NCBI GenBank assembly: GCA_027083135.1
Contig: JALWQH010000032.1
Span: 1 to 54,431 of the forward strand
Reading direction: 5' to 3'
Source: Desulfurococcales archaeon
GTDB lineage: Archaea; Thermoproteota; Thermoprotei_A; Sulfolobales; WAQK01
Length of the DNA: 54,431 nt
Position numbers and translations under genes: made by a program. Under the pieces are notes generated by a model, which worked only from the letters and a program-made list of their open reading frames with translations, was not told where the DNA came from and made no database searches. Of this stretch, positions 20,567 through 47,484 are shown in pieces; within the stretch, counting starts at the first letter, position 1, and every line of letters starts with the position of its first letter.

Positions 20567-21277
20567 TTAGCCTCCAAGATATATTTTCCTAACCCTGAGA
20601 TCGTTTCTAGCCTCATCTGCCCTTGCATGCAGGACTACTCTACCCGTATCCAGCAGGTATACTCTGTCTGCAACCTCCAATGCCTTCCTGGCATTCTGTT
20701 CTACTAGGAGTATGGTCACCTTCTCCTCCTCTTTCAGGCTGCTTATAGTGTCGAAGACCTCGTCGACTATTTTTGGGGCTAGGCCCATGGACGGCTCATC
20801 CATCAGCAGTATTCTGGGGTTAACCATTAATCCCCTCCCGATTGCCAGCATCTGGGCCTCTCCTCCGCTCAGAGTTCGGGCAAGCTGGCTTCTCCTCTCC
20901 TCAAGCCTTGGGAAAAGCCTGTATACTGCTTCAAGACGCCTATAGATCTCCTCCTTGTCTTTCAGAGTATAGGCTCCTACAAGCAGGTTTTCCTCGACTG
21001 TTAGGTATGGGAACAGCCTCCTACCCTCAGGCACGTATCCTATCCTCAGCTTAGCCCTTATCCAGGGAGGCTTGCCTGTTATATCCTCCCCTCTGAACAA
21101 TATTCTACCCTTAGCCGGCTTCACAAGCCCCATTATGCTTCTCAGCAGCGTTGTCTTGCCTGCCCCATTCCTCCCTATGACTGCCACCACCTCGCCTTCA
21201 CTGATATCTATGGACACGTTGTCTAGGGCCATGATCTTGCCGTAATACGTGGTTAGATTCTCGACTCTAAGCAGCAT
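20567..21277 (-). CDS. livF: Branched-chain amino acid ABC transporter ATPase LivF
   Basis: One of two cytoplasmic ATPases of a HAAT-type amino acid importer. The product of about 236 residues has Walker A GRNGAGKTT, the LivF-specific GYVPEGRRLFPYLTVEENL, signature LSGGEAQMLAIGRGLM, Walker B ILLMDEPSMGLAP and LLVEQNARKAL. ATG 21277 is favoured by GGGTGCAGG upstream; GTG 21286 is an alternative. It overlaps the end of livG, completing the order livH-livM-livG-livF. Confidence 0.92.
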   Translation of the reverse strand: MLLRVENLTTYYGKIMALDNVSIDISEGEVVAVIGRNGAGKTTLLRSIMGLVKPAKGRILFRGEDITGKPPWIRAKLRIGYVPEGRRLFPYLTVEENLLVGAYTLKDKEEIYRRLEAVYRLFPRLEERRSQLARTLSGGEAQMLAIGRGLMVNPRILLMDEPSMGLAPKIVDEVFDTISSLKEEEKVTILLVEQNARKALEVADRVYLLDTGRVVLHARADEARNDLRVRKIYLGG

Positions 21278-22034
21278 ATCCTGCACCCAGGTAGGCTTCT
21301 ATAACACTCTTATTCCTAACAACCTCTTCAGGCTTGCCCTCAGCTATTATTCTGCCGAAGTTCAGGACGTACATCCTGTCAGACAGCTCCACTGCTACGG
21401 GGACATTGTGTTCTACTAGGAGTATGGTTAACCCCTTTCCCCTAAGCCTGCGGATAAGGGCTTTTATCTCCTCTATCTCCTCTACACTCATACCCGACAT
21501 TGATTCATCTAGGAGGAGTATTTTGGGATCTATGGCTAGGGCCCTGGCTATCTCCAGCCTCCTCAGATGTCCTAGGGGGAGGGTTCCAGCCTGCTTGTAG
21601 GCGTAGTCCTCTAAGCCGACCTCCCTTAGCAGGCGTTCAGCCTTATCCAGGTAGTCCTCCCTGTCCCAGGGCTTCACGAAGGAGAAGCCCCAGTAATCCC
21701 TGTAGCCGCATGCTGTGAGCACGTTCTCGAATACTGTGAGGTTTTTGAGGGGTCTGACTATCTGGAACGTCCTAGCAATACCCATCCTAGCAATCCTGTA
21801 GGGCGGGAGGCCCTGTATCTCTCTCCCCTCATATATTATCTTCCCCCTAGTAGGCTTGAGGAACCCTGTGACAAGGTTGAAGAAGGTTGTCTTGCCCGCC
21901 CCGTTGGGCCCTATTATTCCTAGGAGCTCGCCTCTATACACCTTTATGTCGACTCCGTCGACTGCTCTGACCCCTCCGAAATGCTTCGCCAGGTCTTTTG
22001 TCTCAAGGATTACTTCTCTCTCCACTGCTCCCAC
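21267..22034 (-). CDS. livG: Branched-chain amino acid ABC transporter ATPase LivG
   Basis: The second cytoplasmic ATPase of the importer, 255 residues. Motifs: Walker A GPNGAGKTTFFNLVTGFLKP, the LivG-type GIARTFQIVRPLKNLTVFENV, LPLGHLRRLEIARAL (signature slightly degenerate, LPLGH instead of LSGGQ), Walker B ILLLDESMSGMS with DES where DEP is common, and LLVEHNVPV. The start is GTG 22034 (or GTG 22025), overlapping livM by about 30 bases. Substrate cannot be read from the ATPase. Confidence 0.9.
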   Translation of the reverse strand: MGAVEREVILETKDLAKHFGGVRAVDGVDIKVYRGELLGIIGPNGAGKTTFFNLVTGFLKPTRGKIIYEGREIQGLPPYRIARMGIARTFQIVRPLKNLTVFENVLTACGYRDYWGFSFVKPWDREDYLDKAERLLREVGLEDYAYKQAGTLPLGHLRRLEIARALAIDPKILLLDESMSGMSVEEIEEIKALIRRLRGKGLTILLVEHNVPVAVELSDRMYVLNFGRIIAEGKPEEVVRNKSVIEAYLGAGYAA

Positions 22035-22914
22035 CTCTGAGCCATTCTAGGAGGGGGCTGTTTCTGCCCAGTATGCCTTGAGGCATGAATACTAGGACGA
22101 GCACTATTACTATGGAGTATACTACCAGCCTGTACTCTACGAAGGGCCTGAAGACCTCTGGCAGGAGCTTCACGACCGCCGCTCCCGTTATGGCTCCGGG
22201 TATGGAGTCCATTCCTCCCAGTATGCTCATGGTGAGGATCTCTATGGACTTGTCGAACCCGAAGTTCTGGTATGTTATAGAGGTTTTGAAGTGGGCTAGG
22301 AGGCTTCCACTGAAGCCTGCGAGGGCTGCTCCTATTGCGAACGCCAGGATCTTGTATTTCCTGGGATCTATCCCCATGGTCTGGGCTGCCTCCTCGTCCT
22401 CCCTTATGGCCTGGAAGGCTCTTCCAAGCCATGATTTCTCAATCCACCATGTCCCTGCTGCTGCCAGGGCTAGTATGATGTATACGAGCACCATGAAGTT
22501 GAATCCCCATACACTGTGGCCTAGGATTCTGGGGGGAGGTATGCCTATGAGGCCAGTCGTCCCTCCGAACACGCTGTAGTACTCGAATACTCCTACAACT
22601 ATGAAGTTGAATCCTATGGTGGTTATGGCTAGGAAGTCGTGTTTAAGCCTTATGCTGACTGCCCCCAGCAGCACGCCTATCAGCAGGGACATAAGGCCTG
22701 CTGCTAGGAATCCTATCCAGAATGAGAGGTGCAGGTCTAGTGTTAGGAGAGCCGAGGTTATGGCTCCTATGCCGACGAAGGCTGCCTGCCCCAGGTTGAC
22801 CTGGCCTGCATAACCCATGGTTATGTTTAACCCTAGGGCCGCTATAGAGTATATGCCTATCTCCGTGAGCAGCGTTATATAGTACATGCCGATCACGGCT
22901 TCCACCCCTCCCAT
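22003..22914 (-). CDS. livM: Branched-chain amino acid ABC transporter permease LivM
   Basis: A polytopic permease of 303 residues with about eight hydrophobic segments. Family marks are LNITMGYAGQVNLGQAAFVGIGA near residue 25, DFLAITTIGFN, the EAA-like loop WLGRAFQAIREDEEAAQTMGI near 165 and GMDSIPGAITGAAVVKLLPE near 235. ATG 22914 directly follows the livH stop, so the permeases are co-translated. It pairs with LivH to form the membrane channel. Confidence 0.92.
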   Translation of the reverse strand: MGGVEAVIGMYYITLLTEIGIYSIAALGLNITMGYAGQVNLGQAAFVGIGAITSALLTLDLHLSFWIGFLAAGLMSLLIGVLLGAVSIRLKHDFLAITTIGFNFIVVGVFEYYSVFGGTTGLIGIPPPRILGHSVWGFNFMVLVYIILALAAAGTWWIEKSWLGRAFQAIREDEEAAQTMGIDPRKYKILAFAIGAALAGFSGSLLAHFKTSITYQNFGFDKSIEILTMSILGGMDSIPGAITGAAVVKLLPEVFRPFVEYRLVVYSIVIVLVLVFMPQGILGRNSPLLEWLRGGSSGERSNP

Positions 22915-23799
22915 CTACTCTGCTCTCCCGAAGAGGCCCTGAGGCCTGAATATTAGTAGCACTATCATGACTATGAATGCGAATGCGTCTCGGGGGAGGA
23001 TGTTGCTGAAGAATGCTGCTAGGAAGGCCTCTGCTACGCCTAGTATGAGTCCGCCTACAACGGCCCCCACTATGCTGCCGAATCCTCCGAGCACTATTAC
23101 TACTAGGGACTCGTATGCAACCACGTCGCCCATGTGGGGGCTTATCTTACCATAATATATTCCTACAAGCATGCCTGCTATGCCTGCTAGGGCTGAGCCA
23201 AGTATGAAGTTCAGGTCCACTATCTTGTTTGTCTCTATGCCCATGGCCTCGGCGACTTCTAAGTCCTGGATGAGGGCCTTCGACGCTAGTCCAAGCCTGG
23301 TTTTCTCGAAGATAAGCCATATGGCCAGGGATAACGCGTAGACGAGGGCCATGAGGAGGATCTGCTGGAACGATATCAGAACGCCGCAGCAGCTGTACAC
23401 TGATGAGGGTAGGCTTGTCTGAAAAGCCTTAGGATAGTGTCCAGCAGTATTGGCAACCATCTCCTCTATCAGGATGAATAGAGCTATGCTTATCATTAAC
23501 GGTATGTGCCTAGGCTTATCCAGCATTGGAAGGTAGAACAGCCTCTCTATAACAACCCCCACCAGCGCCGAGCCTGCAGCAGCCGCCAGGAAGGCTAGAA
23601 GGACGCTGTGAGTAGCCACATAGGATACTAGGCCTACATACGCCCCCACAACGTATACTCCAGCATGAGCAATGTGGAGTATCTCAAGTATACCGTAGAC
23701 TATGGTGAGGCCCAGCGCTATAGCTATGTAGACTGCCCCAAGGGTTAGGCCTGTTATCAGCTCCTGCGCTAGGAAGGCTGCAGTTATCTCCACTATCAC
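22915..23799 (-). CDS. livH: Branched-chain amino acid ABC transporter permease LivH
   Basis: The partner permease, 294 residues, with about eight membrane segments. Family marks are GLTLGAVYIAIALGLTIVYGILEILHIAHAG at the N-terminus, the EAA-like loop TRLGLASKALIQDLEVAEAMGI near 175 and the region IVLGGFGSIVGAVVGGLILG near 240. The start is GTG 23799 with GGAGGG upstream. It begins the livHMGF operon; a TATA-like CCTTTAATTC lies about 50 bases upstream. The substrate-binding gene is separated from it by the ATPase gene at 24184. Confidence 0.92.
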   Translation of the reverse strand: MIVEITAAFLAQELITGLTLGAVYIAIALGLTIVYGILEILHIAHAGVYVVGAYVGLVSYVATHSVLLAFLAAAAGSALVGVVIERLFYLPMLDKPRHIPLMISIALFILIEEMVANTAGHYPKAFQTSLPSSVYSCCGVLISFQQILLMALVYALSLAIWLIFEKTRLGLASKALIQDLEVAEAMGIETNKIVDLNFILGSALAGIAGMLVGIYYGKISPHMGDVVAYESLVVIVLGGFGSIVGAVVGGLILGVAEAFLAAFFSNILPRDAFAFIVMIVLLIFRPQGLFGRAE

Positions 23800-24148
23800 C
23801 AGCCCTCCACACGTAATGGCATCGTCATACCATGCCTCCTCTGAGAATTAAAGGTGTTTTGCCTATGGAGAGGCAGCCATGCTGATCGCCGTGGATACCT
23901 CTCGAAATAATGTTAAGCAGTATTTCTCCAACCATTCTCTTTTTATCTCCACAGGATCTCGTGCATAGCATCTTCTCTGGAACACTAGAACAACCATATA
24001 TTGGAACTGTAAACCAAGCATCCAGACATCAATTCATGGCTCCAAAGAGCAACTAGTAGAAACCCGCTTAGAGCAACATATCAGCCCTATGCTGCTAGTT
24101 CATACTATTCATCAACTATGAACTTATGTTTCAAGCATGAGTTTATTA
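23800..24148. other. Intergenic stretch between livH and the STAND-type ATPase
   Basis: About 350 bases without a credible gene. The part next to livH holds its promoter-like TTTAATTC and ribosome binding site. The remainder is more AT-rich than the flanking operons and I see no conserved frame, tRNA or terminal repeat in it. A TTTATTA at 24142-24148 is the probable TATA box of the ATPase gene. Confidence 0.5.
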
Positions 24149-24182
24149 GGTTCTGGGTCAGAACTAGTTCTGGGTGAGAACC
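24149..24182 (+). promoter_or_regulatory. Tandem palindrome overlapping the ATPase transcription and translation start
   Basis: Two perfect 15-base inverted repeats sit in tandem: GTTCTGGGTCAGAAC (24150-24164) and GTTCTGGGTGAGAAC (24167-24181), each with five-base arms GTTCT/AGAAC around a GGGTC/G core. Their junction AGAACTAGTTCT is itself palindromic, and outer G and C extend the symmetry. The spacing centre to centre is 17 bases. The probable TATA is at 24142-24148, so the repeats would cover the transcription start and the leader up to two bases before ATG 24184. This is the layout of a strong repressor operator. Confidence 0.7.
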
Positions 24183-24183
24183 T

Positions 24184-25305
24184 ATGGTTATTTTTAGTGA
24201 TAGGCCTATCACTGAGCTGGAGCATCTTTATGGTGAGGGGCATAGAAGGGCTGTTGAAAGCCTACGGAGAGCTGTTGAATCAGGCTTCTTTGCGGCTGTT
24301 CTAGGTGCTCGTAGAGTTGGTAAAACTAGTGTAGTCAAGACTTTCCTTAAACATTACCGTCATAAATACTTGTATTTTGATTTGTCTCCATACATGGGTC
24401 TTAAATCAGTTGGTTTCCGCTCTCTTGTTCCAGCAGAAATAGGCTTTGATGAAAATACCTTGTCCAGCGAGGCACAGTTGAATCTAACTGTAATAAGCTT
24501 TAGAATTAAAAGAGTAAAAATTACGGGTGAGGTCTTTCAGGCAAATCTACTATCACTATTAAGAGAATTAAATAGTAAGTATGATAGGCTTGTAATAGTA
24601 TTTGATGAAGCACAGGTATTAGCGTTCATTAAGGGAGTAAACTATCGTGGACTACTACAATTCATACATAACAACTATAGGAACATAGTCGTCGTATTAA
24701 CAGGGTCTATGCCTGGACTGCTTGAAAGAGTGATTTCACCCATAAAAGCAGGGGAACCAGGCTTTGCCCGATACATAGAGGAAATCCATGTACCTAGATG
24801 GAGTAGGAGGGAAACAATAGAATTTCTTAGAGGAGGATTAAAGGAGAGGAATATAGAGCACAGGGAAGAAGAGCTGCATGAAGTATATGAGGAGATATCA
24901 GGCATACCAGGCTTTATTTCATACTATGGGCTTCTCAGGTTAAGAGGGCTGGATCATAGGGACGCCTTAGATAAGACTATAAGCTACGCGGTATCCCAAT
25001 GGGAGAATGATTTGCATGCATTCTTAAGCATATATAACTCACCACTATACATTTATGTGCTCAGCATACTTGCCGAAACAATGACAGGCGCCTCATGGAC
25101 TGAATTAAAGAATGAGTTGGAAAGAAAGCTCAGCAGAACAGTGGGAAAATCAACCCTCTACAGGATACTGACAAACCTGGTGAAAGCAGAGATGATACAG
25201 AAGCAGGGAGACAGATACACCATAATGGATCGCTCATTAAGAAAAACAATAACCATGTTAAACAAGCAATTATATCCTATTATAGAAGCTTGGAATAAAG
25301 GTTAG
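24184..25305 (+). CDS. Archaeal STAND-type ATPase (Arch_ATPase family) with C-terminal winged helix
   Basis: A 373-residue ATPase of the archaeal family related to STAND NTPases. Walker A is LGARRVGKTSVV (about residues 39-50), Walker B RLVIVFDEAQ (near 138), sensor-like VVLTGSMPG near 180, a helical region, and a C-terminal segment (SWTELKNELERKLSRTVGKSTLYRILTNLVKAEMI) that looks like a winged helix-turn-helix. Cellular role of the family is poorly known. It lies in the opposite direction between livK and livHMGF and is visibly richer in AT codons than both, which suggests later insertion. The winged helix makes autoregulation through the upstream palindromes possible. Confidence 0.85.
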   Translation: MVIFSDRPITELEHLYGEGHRRAVESLRRAVESGFFAAVLGARRVGKTSVVKTFLKHYRHKYLYFDLSPYMGLKSVGFRSLVPAEIGFDENTLSSEAQLNLTVISFRIKRVKITGEVFQANLLSLLRELNSKYDRLVIVFDEAQVLAFIKGVNYRGLLQFIHNNYRNIVVVLTGSMPGLLERVISPIKAGEPGFARYIEEIHVPRWSRRETIEFLRGGLKERNIEHREEELHEVYEEISGIPGFISYYGLLRLRGLDHRDALDKTISYAVSQWENDLHAFLSIYNSPLYIYVLSILAETMTGASWTELKNELERKLSRTVGKSTLYRILTNLVKAEMIQKQGDRYTIMDRSLRKTITMLNKQLYPIIEAWNKG

Positions 25306-25376
25306 AGAACTGTGGCTAAAACGAGTTAGACTTACCGTTTATTTCTAGGGGCGGAAAAAGAATGATTAGGGAAGGC

Positions 25377-26570
25377 TTACTGGGATGGTGTTATTATGTC
25401 CTTCTCAGTTATGTCTGCGTAGTGGTGGAAGGCCCCGTTCTTAACTATCTGTAGTGTCAGGTATTTTATGGCGTTGTGCCCTGGTGTGAATCCCAGTATG
25501 TGGCCTGTCACGCCGTCGTAGCCTTTGAGGTTTTCAAGGGCGTTTACTATGGCGTCGGGCTTCGTGCTCTGAGCGTTCTCTATGGCTTTCGCCAGGACCC
25601 TCACAGCATCGTAGGCCGAGGCTGCAACCATGTCAGCGTCTATGCCGTATGTCTCCTTATACTCCTTGATGAACTTCTGGACTAATGGGTTGCTGCTATC
25701 CCTGTTTAGATCAGTGACTATTACTACTCCCTCAACATATGAGCCCCCTATCTCCAGGAACTTGGGTGAGTCGAAGCCCTCGCATCCAATTATCTGCGCC
25801 TTTATGCCGAGGTTCTTGGCCTGCTTTACGGCCACTGTGTGATCATAGTAGCCGAATATCATGAGTACGTCTGGGTTCAGCTGCTTTATCTCGGTGAGCC
25901 ATGGTGTGAAGTCATTGGTGGCGAACTTGAACTTATTCATGTAGACTACCTTGGCTCCAAGGGATTCCGCCTCCTTCTTAGCATACTCTGCCAGGCTTGA
26001 GCCGAACGGGTTGTCTATGTAGAGTATTGCTATGGTCTTAGCGTGGAAGAACTTCACGGCAGCGTAGCCTGCAGCCTTGCCTTCAGTCTCCCCCATCATC
26101 CCTACTCTGAACACGTATTTCTTACCCTCAGTTATCTTGGGGTTGACAGCGTAGGCTACTACTAGTGGTACATGGCTGTTCTCGAAGATGGGTGACGCGG
26201 CCAGGGTTGTGCCGCTGTAGGAGCCGCTGACTGCTGCAACAACCTTGTCCTGCTCTATCATCTTATGAGCGACTGCTACAACCTGGTCTGAGCTGAGCTG
26301 GTCGTCGTAGGGCACCAGCTCAACCTTGTATTTCTTCCCCTTAATCGTTATTCCACCCTCCTCATTGATGTGCTTTACAGCAAGCTCTGCTCCATGCTTG
26401 GCTGCGAGGCCGTCGGCTGAGGCGGGGCCTGTCAAGGGTGCGAAGAACCCTATCTTAATGACCTTTGTGCCTCCCCCGCCTCCCCTGCTCTCAATCCACA
26501 CCGCTGCGGCAGCTGCGATTACGATTACTATTATGATAATGCTTGCCGCAACTGCTTTTCTGCTCGCCAT
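25377..26570 (-). CDS. livK: Branched-chain amino acid ABC transporter substrate-binding protein LivK
   Basis: The extracytoplasmic receptor of the importer, 397 residues. Residues 6-27 form a hydrophobic signal or anchor, followed by a glycine-rich linker (SRGGGGGTK) and a periplasmic-binding-protein type I domain beginning IKIGFFAPLTGPASADGLAAKHGAELAVKHINEEGG. No bacterial lipobox cysteine is present, so retention by the N-terminal helix is likely. ATG 26570 is preceded by GTGATCA and, about 40 bases upstream, by a palindromic GATTTAAATC. It has its own promoter and is separated from livH by the ATPase gene. Placement next to hut genes hints at histidine or related amino acids, but this is inference. 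Confidence 0.92.
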   Translation of the reverse strand: MASRKAVAASIIIIVIVIAAAAAVWIESRGGGGGTKVIKIGFFAPLTGPASADGLAAKHGAELAVKHINEEGGITIKGKKYKVELVPYDDQLSSDQVVAVAHKMIEQDKVVAAVSGSYSGTTLAASPIFENSHVPLVVAYAVNPKITEGKKYVFRVGMMGETEGKAAGYAAVKFFHAKTIAILYIDNPFGSSLAEYAKKEAESLGAKVVYMNKFKFATNDFTPWLTEIKQLNPDVLMIFGYYDHTVAVKQAKNLGIKAQIIGCEGFDSPKFLEIGGSYVEGVVIVTDLNRDSSNPLVQKFIKEYKETYGIDADMVAASAYDAVRVLAKAIENAQSTKPDAIVNALENLKGYDGVTGHILGFTPGHNAIKYLTLQIVKNGAFHHYADITEKDIITPSQ

Positions 26571-41317: not shown

Positions 41318-42146
41318 CCCATTAGTATCCATAGTAATACCAACATACAACTCGGAAAAAACACTGTCACTATGCCTAGAATCAATAAAGAGGCAGACAT
41401 ACAAAAACATAGAGGTGATAGTAGTAGATAGTTATAGCCAAGATAAAACGGTTGAAATAGCAGAAAGATATAAGGTAAAAATTATTAGAGTTCATGGGGC
41501 TCTCCTTTGGGCCAGATACCTAGGTCATCTATATGCTAAAGGGGATATTGAACTCTTACTTGACTCTGACCAGATATTGAATTTTACAGCTATTGAAAGA
41601 GGGGTTAAGAAAATACTGAAAGGTTATGATATGTTAATTTTAGAAGAGAAAAGCTACAAACCAAGAACTTTGATTCAGTGGCTTTTTTATTTTGATAGAA
41701 AACATGTTCATGAAATTAAAGATTTAGACCCAGTATATGGAGTTTTGCTGGCTAGGATGTATAGATATGAGATCTTAGATAACGCATTTAGTATAATAAG
41801 AAAGAAGTTACCGGTAAAGGTGATGTCTAGACTCGTCTCACATGATCATGCAATAATTTATTATGAGGCATGGAAGTGGTCAAGAAAAGTAGACATCCTG
41901 GAAGATGCTATTTATCACATAGAGCCCAAGAACTTAAAGAGCTTAATAAAGAAATTCTATAGATATGGAAGAACAGAGCTTGATGTATCAAGGTATTATC
42001 CAAAGTTAATTAGAGGTAAAAGAAAACCAAGAAAGATAAACAAGAGCCTTAACTCTTGGATCTCACTAGGTTTATGGTTAATTAAATCTATATTTTACGT
42101 CTTTGGACTTATATCGATAGCTAGGCAACTAAGCTTAGAGGATTAA
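41310..42146 (+). CDS. GT2 glycosyltransferase
   Basis: A GT-A fold transferase of 278 residues. SIVIPTYNSEKTLSLCLESIKRQTYKNIEVIVVDSYSQDKT is a textbook GT2 N-terminus (residues about 7-47), followed by LLLDSDQI as DxD at about 86. The nucleotide-binding loop reads VVDSYSQDKT rather than VVDDGSxDxT, a variant seen in part of the family. The C-terminal 60 residues are basic and end in a hydrophobic stretch (ISLGLWLIKSIFYVFGLISIA) that may attach it to the membrane. It overlaps the GT4 gene by eight bases. Confidence 0.88.
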   Translation: MDDPLVSIVIPTYNSEKTLSLCLESIKRQTYKNIEVIVVDSYSQDKTVEIAERYKVKIIRVHGALLWARYLGHLYAKGDIELLLDSDQILNFTAIERGVKKILKGYDMLILEEKSYKPRTLIQWLFYFDRKHVHEIKDLDPVYGVLLARMYRYEILDNAFSIIRKKLPVKVMSRLVSHDHAIIYYEAWKWSRKVDILEDAIYHIEPKNLKSLIKKFYRYGRTELDVSRYYPKLIRGKRKPRKINKSLNSWISLGLWLIKSIFYVFGLISIARQLSLED

Positions 42147-42166
42147 AATAAAATGGTAAGACAACT

Positions 42167-43162
42167 ATGAGTGCTCATAAAATATTAATTATAGGAATAG
42201 ATTGCTTAGATTATTATTTGGTTAAAAAGTGGAAACTGCAGGCTTTACAGCTAACATCAACTGGCTATTATTTGGTGAAAAGTGACGATAGATACACGCC
42301 AATACTTTGGTTAACCCTTCTCTCAGGCATCGATGTCACTAAATACGGTTATACTTCTCAAAGGATATCTAGGTCTAAAAGGCTAAAGAATTTTATATCT
42401 GTCTTTTTAAGTCTTTTAAATAAAGATCTTTTTAGTTATTTAAAATACGAAGAGGGCAATATTGTAGAGAGAATAAGAAAGCTATATTTTAATTATATAA
42501 AGAAGATTTTAATTAAGGCATTAATATTTGGTAATAAAAGTTTAAGTTTTAAGGAGAAAATAAGCTATTATTTATTTTTAAAATCTCTATCAACTGAAAA
42601 AGCTCCTAAGAAAATTTTAAAGAAAACTCCATTATATTTGGCCTATAAGAAAAACCTTAAAGTTCTTTCAATAGAATTTCCTCCTTTAAATGACAATATA
42701 TATAGAATTATCAGAAATACTCTTTATTTTCTTATAGACGCTCCTGAAAGTTTGCGTAGATATATCTTAGAAAAAATATATAAAGGAACTGAAGTTAGTT
42801 TAAAGTTAATACTAAATAAAATTAAAAATTATGATATAATTTTATGGTATACACCATATATAGATATTTTATCACATATGTATTACAAACCAAGAAATTT
42901 AAAAGGCCTATTAAGACTATATATAGGGTATTCAAAAATAAATAAACTAATAGGTAAATTTCTATCAAAGATAAAGGATAATAACTTAGCGATAATAATT
43001 ATGAGTGATCACGGATATGATCCTCTTTTAATGGACCATAGCTATTATGGTTATTGGAGCACTAATATAAAAATTAATAACATAAAAACTCATCAAGATT
43101 TATCGTATTTTATTGGGAATAAGATATTTAAAATAATTAAAAGTAAAAATGAAAAAGAATAA
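42167..43162 (+). CDS. Alkaline-phosphatase-superfamily phosphotransferase or phosphodiesterase in the glycan island
   Basis: A 331-residue enzyme of the alkaline phosphatase fold. Metal and nucleophile positions can be followed: GIDCLDYYLV (Asp), YTPILWLTLLSG (the Thr/Ser nucleophile region), DILSHMYY (Asp and His), IIMSDHGYDP (Asp-His) and MDHSYYGYW (final His). The set matches the type I phosphodiesterase / nucleotide pyrophosphatase clade but the middle (about residues 75-190) is a Lys/Ile/Leu-rich insert of unknown role. Strongly AT-rich. Placed between two glycosyltransferase genes (14-base overlap with the next), it could process a phosphorylated glycan or lipid. Confidence 0.75.
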   Translation: MSAHKILIIGIDCLDYYLVKKWKLQALQLTSTGYYLVKSDDRYTPILWLTLLSGIDVTKYGYTSQRISRSKRLKNFISVFLSLLNKDLFSYLKYEEGNIVERIRKLYFNYIKKILIKALIFGNKSLSFKEKISYYLFLKSLSTEKAPKKILKKTPLYLAYKKNLKVLSIEFPPLNDNIYRIIRNTLYFLIDAPESLRRYILEKIYKGTEVSLKLILNKIKNYDIILWYTPYIDILSHMYYKPRNLKGLLRLYIGYSKINKLIGKFLSKIKDNNLAIIIMSDHGYDPLLMDHSYYGYWSTNIKINNIKTHQDLSYFIGNKIFKIIKSKNEKE

Positions 43163-44444
43163 AAAATTAATAAATTTATTAATACCAATAATATCTTCCT
43201 CATTTGGAGGGGGTGAGATTATAAGTTTTAAGATAGTGAAATTTTTATATGAAAGCTTTAGTCAAAGAAAACATATTTATGGAGATCTAAGACTGTATAT
43301 TTTTATCTTATTACCTTGTGGTAGTCCTTTATTCAAATTCTTAAATGATATGATTAATAAGCTCAATAAGTCAAATATAATTCTTAGTGTTTATATTTAT
43401 TGCTGGAAAGAGCAATTAGACTATTTGAAGAAACTCATTAAACTCTTGGCAGATCTTGTTATAATATATATTAAAAAATATAGAAATAAGGTAATTCTTC
43501 TATCACCGATATGTACAGCCGAAAATTTGTTTTTTACTGTCATCTTTAAGTTAATTTCTTCACTTATTAAAACAAGAACTGTTATTATTTCAATTATTCA
43601 TGGAAATCAAAGTCTTTTATATTATTCCTTCAAAGTAAAGCGAGGTATAATAAATAAGATATACTCTTTATTCCAAATTGCCTTATATTTTATAAATGAT
43701 TTACTAAGTTCATATATATTAACTATTATACCTTTGGCTTCACTTACTAAACATAAGTTTAAAAAATATATTCTAATTCCAGTGCCTTATAATATATATA
43801 ATGAAAATGACGAATATATATTTTCCAAAAGACCCGTCATATTTTTCATGGGTAGGCTATATAACGATGTAAAGGGAGATTTTGATGTTATATATGTTTA
43901 TACGAAAGTTCTCATTAAACTCTTGGCATATAAAGTAAAAAAAGATTACCTTATTCCGCAATTAGTGATATGTGGAGAAGGTCCTGATAAGGAGCATATT
44001 AAGAAATTAGTAGAGAAAATTAATAATAAAATTAAAAAGATTGCTAATGAGAAAATTTTATACATGGGTTTTATTAGAGGAAATCTTAAGGAACAAATCT
44101 TAAGAGATGCTATTATATGCATATTACCTTCTAGATTTGAAAGCTTTCCTATTGTGGTGTCAGAATGTATAGCTTATGGTGCGAAAGTTCTAACGTATAA
44201 AGGTCCTTGGATTAAAAACTACAATATTATTGGAGTAGATCACTTGATAAATGGGGTACCTCTTAATGATCTAAATGCACTAACACTTAGACTTGAAGAA
44301 GAAATTATTAATTTTAATAATAAAAAAATGAAGCTGGTTAAGGTTAAAAATGTTAGAGCTAAATTAAATAAATATTATAATGAATATCTTTTCAGGAAGA
44401 CTTTGATGATAATTATCCATACAATTATTAACCTATTAAGATAA
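43149..44444 (+). CDS. GT4 glycosyltransferase
   Basis: A GT-B type transferase of 431 residues, very rich in Lys, Ile and Asn codons. The N-terminal ISSSFGGGEIISFKIVKFL is the acceptor-side loop, the donor-side half begins PVIFFMGRLYNDVKGDF near residue 228, and the E-x7-E region is ILPSRFESFPIVVSECIAYG near 330. Start ATG 43149 lies inside the end of the preceding gene. Neighbours are all glycan enzymes. Substrate unknown. Confidence 0.82.
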   Translation: MKKNKKLINLLIPIISSSFGGGEIISFKIVKFLYESFSQRKHIYGDLRLYIFILLPCGSPLFKFLNDMINKLNKSNIILSVYIYCWKEQLDYLKKLIKLLADLVIIYIKKYRNKVILLSPICTAENLFFTVIFKLISSLIKTRTVIISIIHGNQSLLYYSFKVKRGIINKIYSLFQIALYFINDLLSSYILTIIPLASLTKHKFKKYILIPVPYNIYNENDEYIFSKRPVIFFMGRLYNDVKGDFDVIYVYTKVLIKLLAYKVKKDYLIPQLVICGEGPDKEHIKKLVEKINNKIKKIANEKILYMGFIRGNLKEQILRDAIICILPSRFESFPIVVSECIAYGAKVLTYKGPWIKNYNIIGVDHLINGVPLNDLNALTLRLEEEIINFNNKKMKLVKVKNVRAKLNKYYNEYLFRKTLMIIIHTIINLLR

Positions 44445-44464
44445 ATTTAACTACTTTAAGCAAA

Positions 44465-46285
44465 ATGATAAAAATTAAATATTATAATTTTGTTATTATT
44501 ATAATTTTGTTATTAAGCATTTTAGTTAGATTTCTTAGCTTAAGCTCAGCTCCACCAGGTTTTGATTACGATGAAGGGATTTGGGACTTAATATTTTTAT
44601 TTAAAAAGTTATCTGGTTTAACCTCTTTATCTAATAAAATAATCATATTAAGTTCTTATATAGCTCATCCTCAAATACCGATACTTTTATTAATAAATAA
44701 AATTGATCCAAATATTTTAGTTCATTTATCTATAGATAAGTTCTTTTTAATATTTAGGATATCTCATAGCCTTATAGGTGCAGTACTTCTATTAGTGGTA
44801 TTTATTTTCGGTAGAAAAATACTTGTCAATATAAATTATTTAAATAATAACTATTATTTAATATTATATACTTTATACATTTCTTTTGCCATGCCTATAT
44901 TAATACATCTATCGCGTACTGTCTCGCTAACGAAGGTACTACTCTTTGCTTATGGAACTTATTTATTATTAACCTCTGTGTTAAAAATAAAGGAAAGTAA
45001 AGCCTTATATTCCAAAAGAACATTACATTTTAGAATATTAGCAGGTTACTTTTTATATTTCATAACCTTTTTGACTGATATTAAATCAGTATTTTACGTG
45101 TCTTTTTCGGCACTTTTTTTCATAATAATATTACTAAATATATTAGATACTAAAAAAGAAAAATACATATATATGTGCCTACTTATTTCATCTTTTTTAT
45201 TGTCAATATTATTAGAGCTTTCAAATTCGAGTGTTTACACAAAGATTTTGCATGGAGCCTCTTTCATGCCATCTAACATACTCCCCTATTTTCATTATGA
45301 TTATTTATTTATATCTGGAGGGCGTTTATTCCTCGAGCCATTAGTTCAGCCCTTTAGCTGGCTTGGAGACTACACTTCATGCTATAGATGGAATGCTTGT
45401 GTAGGAGTCTTAGGTCCTTTAGGAATATTAATATATGCTATACCTCTTTTGTTGGTTAAGGTTATTAAAAAGCTTCGTTCATTATATGGAAAAATTTATC
45501 TTAAGTGGTTTATTGTGATGTTCTTATCCTATATATTATCATTATCGTTTACTAAGTATGATAATCCAGTATCAGTTAGGCATCTGTATTTCTACATATT
45601 TGTACCGTTGACCTTAGTACTTATGCTAAAAGCTATTCTAGATCAAAGATCTTCAAGACAAGTAAAGATTTTAAAATCATTAATCTTAGTTATAGTTATA
45701 ATTTATTCAGCCATAGCATCAGTATACTATTTTAACTATTATCCATCGGTACCTTATGTAAAATATAGATTTTTAGAAAGTGAACATAAGCTACTTATAA
45801 ATGCCATGGATGTCTTAACTAATCCTTCTATTAAGCAATATATGAAAAACGATAATATCAAGAATGTACATTTACTTTATATAGCTTTGAATAGATCAAG
45901 ACTTAAATACATAAATTTTGGAGCAATATGTAATTTATATAGGTCATTCATAGAGTTTAAGCTTAAGCATACAAATGTTTTTTGCTCTATTTCAGACTTA
46001 CAATATTTATCTAATGAAAAATCGTTAAAAATAACCATAAATAATCTTCTAAATGGTAATAATAACGAGTTAATATTTTTCATTTTTGAGAACAGTAATT
46101 CAAGAATCATAAAAGAAATATTTCAGTATACCGTAGATACATTCAATAATGAGTATAAAATTTTAAAAGTTTGGCAAATGAAATTATCTATGAATATATA
46201 TTTAGAAATACCTGAGAAAAATAAACTAGTTTCAGTAAAGAAGACAAGCTTAATATTAGTTATTATCTTATTACATAATAGATAA
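44465..46285 (+). CDS. GT-C-like membrane glycosyltransferase
   Basis: A 606-residue membrane protein with about 11 hydrophobic segments. Shortly after the first helix, APPGFDYDEGIWDLIFL carries the Asp-Glu pair typical of GT-C enzymes (ArnT/PMT-like) that use lipid-phosphate sugars in an extracytoplasmic loop. A cysteine-containing loop (GDYTSCYRWNACVGVLG) follows the middle, and the C-terminal 170 residues are soluble. It would use donors made by the GT2 enzyme at 39372 or similar. AT content is very high. It follows the previous gene by 20 bases. Confidence 0.75.
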   Translation: MIKIKYYNFVIIIILLLSILVRFLSLSSAPPGFDYDEGIWDLIFLFKKLSGLTSLSNKIIILSSYIAHPQIPILLLINKIDPNILVHLSIDKFFLIFRISHSLIGAVLLLVVFIFGRKILVNINYLNNNYYLILYTLYISFAMPILIHLSRTVSLTKVLLFAYGTYLLLTSVLKIKESKALYSKRTLHFRILAGYFLYFITFLTDIKSVFYVSFSALFFIIILLNILDTKKEKYIYMCLLISSFLLSILLELSNSSVYTKILHGASFMPSNILPYFHYDYLFISGGRLFLEPLVQPFSWLGDYTSCYRWNACVGVLGPLGILIYAIPLLLVKVIKKLRSLYGKIYLKWFIVMFLSYILSLSFTKYDNPVSVRHLYFYIFVPLTLVLMLKAILDQRSSRQVKILKSLILVIVIIYSAIASVYYFNYYPSVPYVKYRFLESEHKLLINAMDVLTNPSIKQYMKNDNIKNVHLLYIALNRSRLKYINFGAICNLYRSFIEFKLKHTNVFCSISDLQYLSNEKSLKITINNLLNGNNNELIFFIFENSNSRIIKEIFQYTVDTFNNEYKILKVWQMKLSMNIYLEIPEKNKLVSVKKTSLILVIILLHNR

Positions 46286-46293
46286 TAAAAGGT

Positions 46294-47484
46294 ATGAACG
46301 AGAAAATGCAAAAAGTACTTATAATATTTGATGGGGTTCTAGATTTAACAAAAGGTGGTGCTGAAAGATTCACCTTTAATCTTGCTTGCTCATATAGACG
46401 TCTAGGATTAGAACCAATAGTTCTTGGATTTGATCAGAAAATTAATAAGATAGAGCTGTATAAAAATAATAAGCCAGTAATTATCATGATCCCAACCATA
46501 AAGGTAATTGGAAGAAGTATATTATTCAAAAAATTAAAATATATGAAACTGCTTATAAAGCTAATAGAAATTGCTGACATAGTTCACATTCTTTACGGAG
46601 AATCAGTCCCTCACTTTATATCAGGTCTTTTAGCAAGATTCTTATTCAAGAAAAAATTAATTGTTTCGCCACTAGCATCAATAAGTTTCATAAAACATCA
46701 TAGTCTGGCTAAAAGATTTCTGTCCCTCTATTTAATTAGCGTTAAATTACTCCTTACAAAAATAGCCAATCTTGTGCATGTAGCTTCCTTATATGACTAT
46801 TATAGCTTATTAAAAATTAATAAAAATATAATTGTAATTCCTCATAGTCTAAAGTTAAAAACTGAGAAAAATAATAAGGCATATAACAGGTTATGTGCTG
46901 TTATTAAGCAGAGGCTTTTTGAAAAATTCAAGGATAAAATAAAAATATGTTACATGGGTCGATTTACCGAAGATAAAGGAGCAAAAGTTCTTCTCAGCGC
47001 ACTTGAAAAACTTATTCAGAAACAAATAAAAGTTATTCTGGTCATTATAGGTTCTAAAAGGTATGTACTTCGAATGTTTAAAAGTTATATTACTAGTAAT
47101 CTTAATATTAAATATTTTAATATCAAAAATTATATTATTATGTTAGGTTTTGTTCCGGACACCTGTAAATACACTATACTTTCAGAGTGCGATCTGGGCG
47201 TATTACCTTCTCTTTCAGATCCTGTTGAAGCTTTTTCAATTATTTTAAGCGAGTTTAATTTTCTAGGTATACCAGTCGTTGCTTCCAATGTAGGTGCTCT
47301 TAAATTCCGTGTTAAACCTTATGCAGGCATTTTAGTTAAACCGAGAGATCCTGAAGCCCTAGCCAGAGGTATCATGCAAGCATTACAGTTAAAGGGGAAG
47401 GTGAAGAGGCTGCCTGATACGATAACGTATGAACAAGAGGTGAGGCTATGGGGCTCAGCATTAAAGGAATTGCTAAAATCTTAA
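46294..47484 (+). CDS. GT4 glycosyltransferase
   Basis: A GT-B type transferase of 396 residues. The N-terminal GGAERFTFNLACSYRRLGLEPIVLG is the typical acceptor-side loop (residues about 17-41); CYMGRFTEDKGAKVLLSALE near 218 opens the donor half and VLPSLSDPVEAFSIILSEF near 302 is the E-x7-E region, followed by PVVASNVGALKFRV and GILVKPRDPEALARGI. Its 3' end (about 47380 on) becomes less AT-rich, and the next gene begins inside it. ATG 46294 lacks a clear ribosome binding site. Confidence 0.88.
   Translation: MNEKMQKVLIIFDGVLDLTKGGAERFTFNLACSYRRLGLEPIVLGFDQKINKIELYKNNKPVIIMIPTIKVIGRSILFKKLKYMKLLIKLIEIADIVHILYGESVPHFISGLLARFLFKKKLIVSPLASISFIKHHSLAKRFLSLYLISVKLLLTKIANLVHVASLYDYYSLLKINKNIIVIPHSLKLKTEKNNKAYNRLCAVIKQRLFEKFKDKIKICYMGRFTEDKGAKVLLSALEKLIQKQIKVILVIIGSKRYVLRMFKSYITSNLNIKYFNIKNYIIMLGFVPDTCKYTILSECDLGVLPSLSDPVEAFSIILSEFNFLGIPVVASNVGALKFRVKPYAGILVKPRDPEALARGIMQALQLKGKVKRLPDTITYEQEVRLWGSALKELLKS

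Follow-up and report, generated by a model that had tools for sequence, protein, structure and literature searches.

The ATPase gene and the repeats at its start

The window (the whole stretch of DNA that was analysed, 54,431 nucleotides from a Desulfurococcales archaeon) encodes on its forward strand a 373-amino-acid STAND-type/ATPase_2 ATPase with a C-terminal winged helix (24184 to 25305), and two tandem inverted repeats lie directly in front of its start codon. Repeat 1, GTTCTGGGTCAGAAC, occupies positions 24150 to 24164 of the forward strand, the same position as in most family members, and repeat 2, GTTCTGGGTGAGAAC, occupies positions 24167 to 24181 of the same strand. Both are perfect copies of GTTCT-N5-AGAAC, and between 24120 and 24190 the order is ...AGTTTATTAG, GTTCTGGGTCAGAAC, a TA spacer, GTTCTGGGTGAGAAC, CT and the ATG at 24184. 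An outer G/C pair at 24149 and 24182 further flanks the two repeats. Upstream, a TATA-box-like TTTATTA is found at 24142 to 24148 (forward strand), and the seven nucleotides before repeat 1 in 199 homologous operators have the consensus T-T-T-(T/A)-T-A-A. A preliminary description of this locus had reported two perfect tandem repeats ending two bases before the ATG, and a TATA at 24142 to 24148; the first claim held and the second held for a TATA-like element. Its third claim, that the junction of the repeats forms another palindrome, held only in part. The junction is a real 14-bp palindrome in the window, CAGAACTAGTTCTG, because the 2-bp spacer is self-complementary, but spacers are 3–4 bp in most homologues and the junction palindrome is therefore not a general third site. 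With neither spacer length nor junction conserved in the family, a functional third palindrome is ruled out.

The exact word GTTCTN5AGAAC occurs three times in the 1.75 Mb home genome and two of these occurrences are the window repeats, a pairing that lies beyond chance. A regulon built on this word can be ruled out, since exact sites number three genome-wide and mismatched ones stay at background level. A search of the home genome with the window operator similarly returned no other strong site except the operator of a paralogue. Separately, a lone imperfect inverted repeat, TTTCTAGGGGCGGAAA, lies downstream of the ATPase gene at 25342–25357, following TTTAT. It has no gene behind it and resembles a single unit of the operators of other paralogues, and its presence may be due to chance.

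The protein scores above the cut-offs of two Pfam models, AAA_14 (45.8 bits, cut-off 27) and ATPase_2 (41.7 bits, cut-off 33.2). Its Walker A motif (GARRVGKTS, residues 41–49; 24304 to 24330, forward strand) and Walker B motif (DEAQ, residues 141–144; 24604 to 24615, forward strand) are intact and invariant across 14 members, with the G, R, G, K and S columns of the former and D141, E142 and Q144 of the latter unchanged in the alignment. The Protein Data Bank structures 2FNA and 2QEN are its relatives by both sequence and fold, and a Foldseek comparison of the AlphaFold2 model with 2fna gave an E-value of 2e-22 and TM-scores of 0.75/0.79. Family models, Walker motifs and fold all fit an SSO1545-like ATPase_2/AAA_14 (STAND) ATPase, and we assign the protein to this family. 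None of the NCBIfam models matched the window protein or either of two relatives tested with it. A role in defence has little support: PADLOC matches were weak, were to candidate systems and fell mostly within the shared ATPase domain.

The preliminary description had also suggested that the protein ends in a probable winged helix, and this was borne out. The AlphaFold2 model, with a mean pLDDT of 86.9 for the whole protein and of about 90 locally, places a winged-helix domain at about residues 288–346 (25045 to 25221, forward strand), with helices at 288–298, 305–316 and 322–334 and a wing at 339–346, and the Pfam model MCM_C matches this end of the protein with 26.7 bits, just under its cut-off of 27. 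The third helix (25147 to 25185, forward strand) is the recognition helix, identified from the model and from its coupling to bases 1 and 4 of the operator half-site described below. Its first two residues, K322 and S323, are encoded at 25147–25152 of the forward strand.

Tandem operators are a feature of the ATPase family

All five full-length ATPase paralogues in the home genome have a tandem pair of inverted repeats before their start codons, and the arms differ from one paralogue to the next. Alongside the window pair these operators are CTTATGGGGGGTGTAAG/CTTATGGGGGGCGTAAG, GTTTCGAGGCGGAAC in two copies, GTATCAGGGGTGATAC in two copies and GTCCTGGGGGTGAAC/GTTCTGGGGGTGAAC. The search for GTTCTN5AGAAC upstream of related genes that the preliminary description had proposed thus has a divided answer: the architecture recurs with arms specific to each paralogue, and the fixed word does not. 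The GTATCAGGGGTGATAC pair precedes a paralogue (L004, G000:C16) whose gene is broken near its start. The frameshift or stop there could be an assembly error or mark a pseudogene; the operator and helix (N-A) of this gene still fit the code presented below. Two orthologues (74% identical) from other metagenome-assembled genomes, L009 and L010, carry GTTCTGAGTGAGAAC-TG-GTTCTGGGTGAGAAC before a TTG start. The genes that flank L009, the orthologue whose neighbours were checked, are unrelated to those in the window, and its operator has been kept, indicating that the operator travels with the gene.

To assess how general this arrangement is, 141 ATPase homologues were collected from 59 genomes of the order. 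Tandem inverted repeats with a score of at least 16 were found at 102 of the 141 ATPase starts. Among 423 dinucleotide shuffles none reached this score, and among 2,061 other segments eight did. The starts below it, inspected by eye, mostly have imperfect pairs, truncated genes or misplaced start codons. With a second scoring, a threshold of 22 was reached by 44 of the 54 ATPase genes and by four of 127 genes of other kinds; one of these four is in fact an ATPase with the wrong label, and two others are in AT-rich DNA. These scans covered the window and the collected loci, not whole genomes. The same architecture is also present in other classes of the phylum.

The arms vary while the geometry of the operator stays fixed across the family. 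In a set of 124 operators the unit is 15–16 bp long in 93 and 14, 17 or 18 bp in the rest; the spacer is 3 bp in 76, 4 bp in 27 and 2 bp in 17; the gap to the start codon is mostly 0–3; and the half-site begins with GT or CT in 108. The window and its homologues share the order TATA, repeat, repeat, start, with the TATA-like element directly before unit 1. A few family members, among them L230 and L245, have an apparently single repeat and offer natural cases for the contribution of the second copy.

Repeats so close to a start codon could in principle work at the RNA level, by folding into hairpins that regulate translation or present a G-rich loop as a Shine-Dalgarno sequence. In favor of this idea, the sense strand of repeat 2 is G-rich in 176 of 199 homologous genes, directly before the start codon, and an added leader or ribosome-binding function of this repeat is plausible. 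Several observations argue against RNA as the principal site of action. Repeat 1 is flipped, with a C-rich center, in 20 of the 199 genes (repeat 2 in five), and such flipping is what one would expect of a site bound by protein in double-stranded DNA and not of an RNA element. At the usual distance between TATA box and transcription start in archaeal promoters, repeat 1 would not be transcribed at all. The identity of the arm bases tracks the DNA-reading helix of the protein, as shown below. Finally, Rfam covariance models gave no match between 23900 and 24400 at E-values up to 1. We therefore regard an RNA-based mechanism as very improbable, and a second role for the G-rich center of repeat 2, as ribosome-binding or leader sequence, as a possibility.

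A further alternative is that the ATPase genes are mobile and that the repeats serve in their recombination or transposition. The unrelated neighborhoods of orthologues lend this some support, as does L012, which has a second inverted pair behind the gene. However, nearly all genes carry the sites at their 5' end only and at a fixed distance from TATA and start, paired sites at both ends are as a rule absent, and a search of plasmid and phage records gave no match. This explanation is close to excluded, and we favor an operator read by protein. The second tandem operator of L012, GGGTTCTGGGTCAGAACTAGTTCTGTGCGAGAACC, is inverted and lies about 40–80 bases 3' of the ATPase stop codon; it has its own TATA-like CTTTATTG, no open reading frame behind it and no counterpart behind other orthologues, and could be an antisense promoter or the relic of an inverted duplicate.

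A residue–base code links the recognition helix to the operator

If each ATPase reads its own operator, residues of the winged helix should co-vary with bases of the half-site. Coupling was measured as background-corrected mutual information between 347 protein columns and 6 half-site positions (2,082 pairs) in 95 genes with an intact open reading frame and an operator. Two couplings exceed all others among the 2,082: base 1 couples to residue 322 at a Z of 10.6 and base 4 to residue 323 at a Z of 8.0, the next-best value being 4.4. In the AlphaFold2 model the recognition helix begins with these two residues. At residue 322, D goes with C at base 1 and N, K or R with G; at residue 323, S goes with C at base 4, A with T and N with A, and K mostly with G or A. 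Pairings of lysine or arginine with guanine and of aspartate with cytosine are chemically sensible. Both rules hold in each of the five home paralogues (KS-GTTC, DN-CTTA, KA-GTTT, RS-GTTC and NA-GTAT), the last being the gene with the broken start, which was part of neither the training nor the hold-out set.

The code has predictive value. Using only proteins less than 35% identical, base 1 was predicted correctly in 75 of 81 cases, compared with 34 of 81 for the majority base, and base 4 in 48 of 66, compared with 13 of 66. With the rule fixed beforehand, a hold-out of 80 genes was then collected from unseen genomes, 45 from the class and 35 from other classes of the phylum. Base 1 was correct in 70 of 79 and base 4 in 55 of 72; in the other classes alone the corresponding figures were 29 of 34 and 27 of 31. 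None of 20,000 permutations reached either total, the best being 57 for base 1 and 37 for base 4. Most hold-out proteins are 45–97% identical to a training protein and only three fall below 45%, and the hold-out is thus independent only in part.

The sequences are related, and shared descent has to be weighed in judging such associations. In 50 disjoint pairs of genes that switch class at residue 322, base 1 was concordant in 47, half concordant in 3 and discordant in none; these pairs are disjoint yet not fully independent by descent. A single comparison illustrates such a switch: L089 and L190 have ATPase domains that are 84% identical and winged helices that are 62% identical, and the substitutions N322D and R323N accompany a change of operator from GTGTC to CTTAC. 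On a tree of the ATPase domain, parsimony counted 7 co-changes of residue 322 with base 1 against 1.8 expected; among the 347 columns this pair comes third, and the pair of residue 323 and base 4 fifth. These counts favor the code but are not decisive, and partial Mantel correlations hardly separate the winged-helix domain (0.17) from the ATPase domain (0.15).

Across 174 genes, D at residue 322 is found with C in 81 of 84, N with G in 35 of 35 and K with G in 18 of 18, and at residue 323, S is found with C in 61 of 66, A with T in 24 of 34 and N with A in 7 of 8. In the same genes residue 321 also tracks base 3 (T with A in 20 of 20, D with G in 13 of 13). Ambiguities remain, with S or T at 322 occurring with C or G and K at 323 with G, A or T. 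Six loci (L185, L207, L209, L210, L213 and L214) are exceptions, D-A proteins with CTAAC, which has A at base 4, and one with ATATC; they suggest an effect of context, from residue 321 (Y) or later residues of the helix.

The sites could instead be occupied by another regulator, encoded by a neighbor or acting globally. Palindromes in the promoters of other genes are often bound by regulators, and binding by the ATPase itself has not been measured. On the other hand, the arms differ among paralogues of one genome and follow the recognition helix of each ATPase, the orthologue L009 retains its operator amid unrelated neighbors, and a regulon would need further strong sites, which the home genome does not have. 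We judge another regulator very improbable. That the ATPase reads its own operator is, by contrast, very likely, with support that is indirect and inferred from sequence alone: covariation and prediction in unseen genomes, without binding data.

A proposed model of negative autoregulation

These findings lead us to propose, with considerable confidence, that the tandem repeats are a private operator read by the winged helix of the very ATPase they precede, and that the circuit is one of negative autoregulation. The architecture, its conservation and the residue–base code are supported by sequence, and a dyad operator in the gene's own promoter, at a repressing position, is present in the window and in homologues; binding and repression are inferred, in the absence of binding or expression data. 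We envision a scenario in which the C-terminal winged helix binds the operator, probably as two adjacent dimers, one per repeat, the dimers themselves being an inference. The operator leaves no room between TATA box and start codon and, by inference from the layout of archaeal promoters, protein sitting there should get in the way of RNA polymerase; the ATPase would in this way hold down its own synthesis. Affinity for DNA would presumably depend on what the ATPase domain senses, whether its nucleotide state or a ligand. Each paralogue would run a copy of this device tuned to its own sites, a tuning that depends chiefly on residues 322 and 323 at the beginning of the recognition helix. The preliminary description had proposed self-repression through these sites; self-reading is now supported by covariation of helix and half-site that extends to unseen genomes, and the sign of regulation rests on position alone.

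Self-binding could instead activate the gene, or the ATPases could mostly cross-regulate their sister paralogues. One home paralogue, C6, carries the code residues R-S where the window protein has K-S, and its site, GTTCTGGGGGTGAAC, is related to that of the window gene, making cross-talk between it and the window gene possible. However, sites between TATA and start are expected to hinder RNA polymerase and not to help it, and the half-sites of the other three home paralogues are clearly different. We consider activation or predominant cross-regulation unlikely and retain negative autoregulation as the preferred model. A bolder reading is that these are one-gene circuits found throughout the phylum, in which the main or only DNA target of an ATPase sensor is its own promoter and a readable and probably re-programmable code keeps paralogues from interfering with each other. 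The balance of evidence tips only slightly toward this broader view.

Relation to known ATPases and DNA-binding regulators

The closest structure by fold and by sequence is that of SSO1545 from Sulfolobus solfataricus (2FNA), a solved archaeal AAA+ ATPase with the same fold and domain order. Its code positions are D-S, from which an operator of the form CTTC...GAAG is predicted, as found in its close relative L020. No description of an operator or DNA specificity for SSO1545 was found in the open-access literature searched, where it is cited merely as a structural homolog. PAB2304 from Pyrococcus abyssi (2QEN), a Walker-type ATPase, has the same architecture in another archaeal phylum. Orc1/Cdc6 initiators, the next-best fold matches of the window protein, likewise place an ATPase with a winged helix on DNA, but their sites are replication origins whereas the present ones are the promoters of the ATPase genes themselves.

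In MalT, mycobacterial IniR and other STAND regulators a signaling ATPase is joined to a DNA-binding domain, as here. The ATPase domain of IniR has been modelled on SSO1545, and the protein binds the iniBAC promoter (PMC5760070). Unlike IniR, with iniBAC as its target, the present ATPases apparently read only their own promoters, through a C-terminal winged helix and with paralogue-specific sites. Another archaeal protein with a winged helix, Stf76 from the Sulfolobus plasmid-virus pSSVx, binds its own promoter at two sites (PMC4027180); in contrast to the family described here it has 76 amino acids, no ATPase domain and no paralogue-specific code, and is a single case. Autoregulation by winged-helix proteins, SSO1545-like structures and STAND regulators with DNA-binding domains (IniR) were thus already known. 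Within the open-access literature searched, what is new is the tandem operator found across the phylum, the differences in its sequence from one paralogue to another and a recognition code that can be read. The preliminary description had known of no operator of this form, and that statement held within the same literature; our search, which was mainly of open-access work and left most subscription papers uncovered, found no description of the operator family or the code.

SSO1545-like ATPases often occur in several copies per genome in this phylum, and no known job was found for them. The operators give them a first testable molecular function, as DNA-binding regulators. About 175 natural protein–operator pairs governed by a simple code could be used to study insulation among duplicated regulators, and are a potential source of mutually independent repressors for hyperthermophiles. 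For STAND/NLR-type switches more broadly, the output in this branch may be control of the switch's own level.

Genomic setting of the window gene

The region of the window ATPase gene (24001–25300) has about 40% GC and the surrounding cluster about 52%. The surroundings are a branched-chain amino acid transport cluster, with a binding-protein gene at 25377–26570 and permease/ATPase genes at 20567–23799, and the ATPase gene sits inside it on the opposite strand. The orthologue L009 is located elsewhere, and the window gene resembles a single-gene insertion. Further along the window, GC content drops to 25–28% over about 5 kb (42001–47000), against about 53% in that region of the genome. The open reading frames of this segment resemble glycosyltransferases and a membrane protein, and it is probably a recently acquired island.
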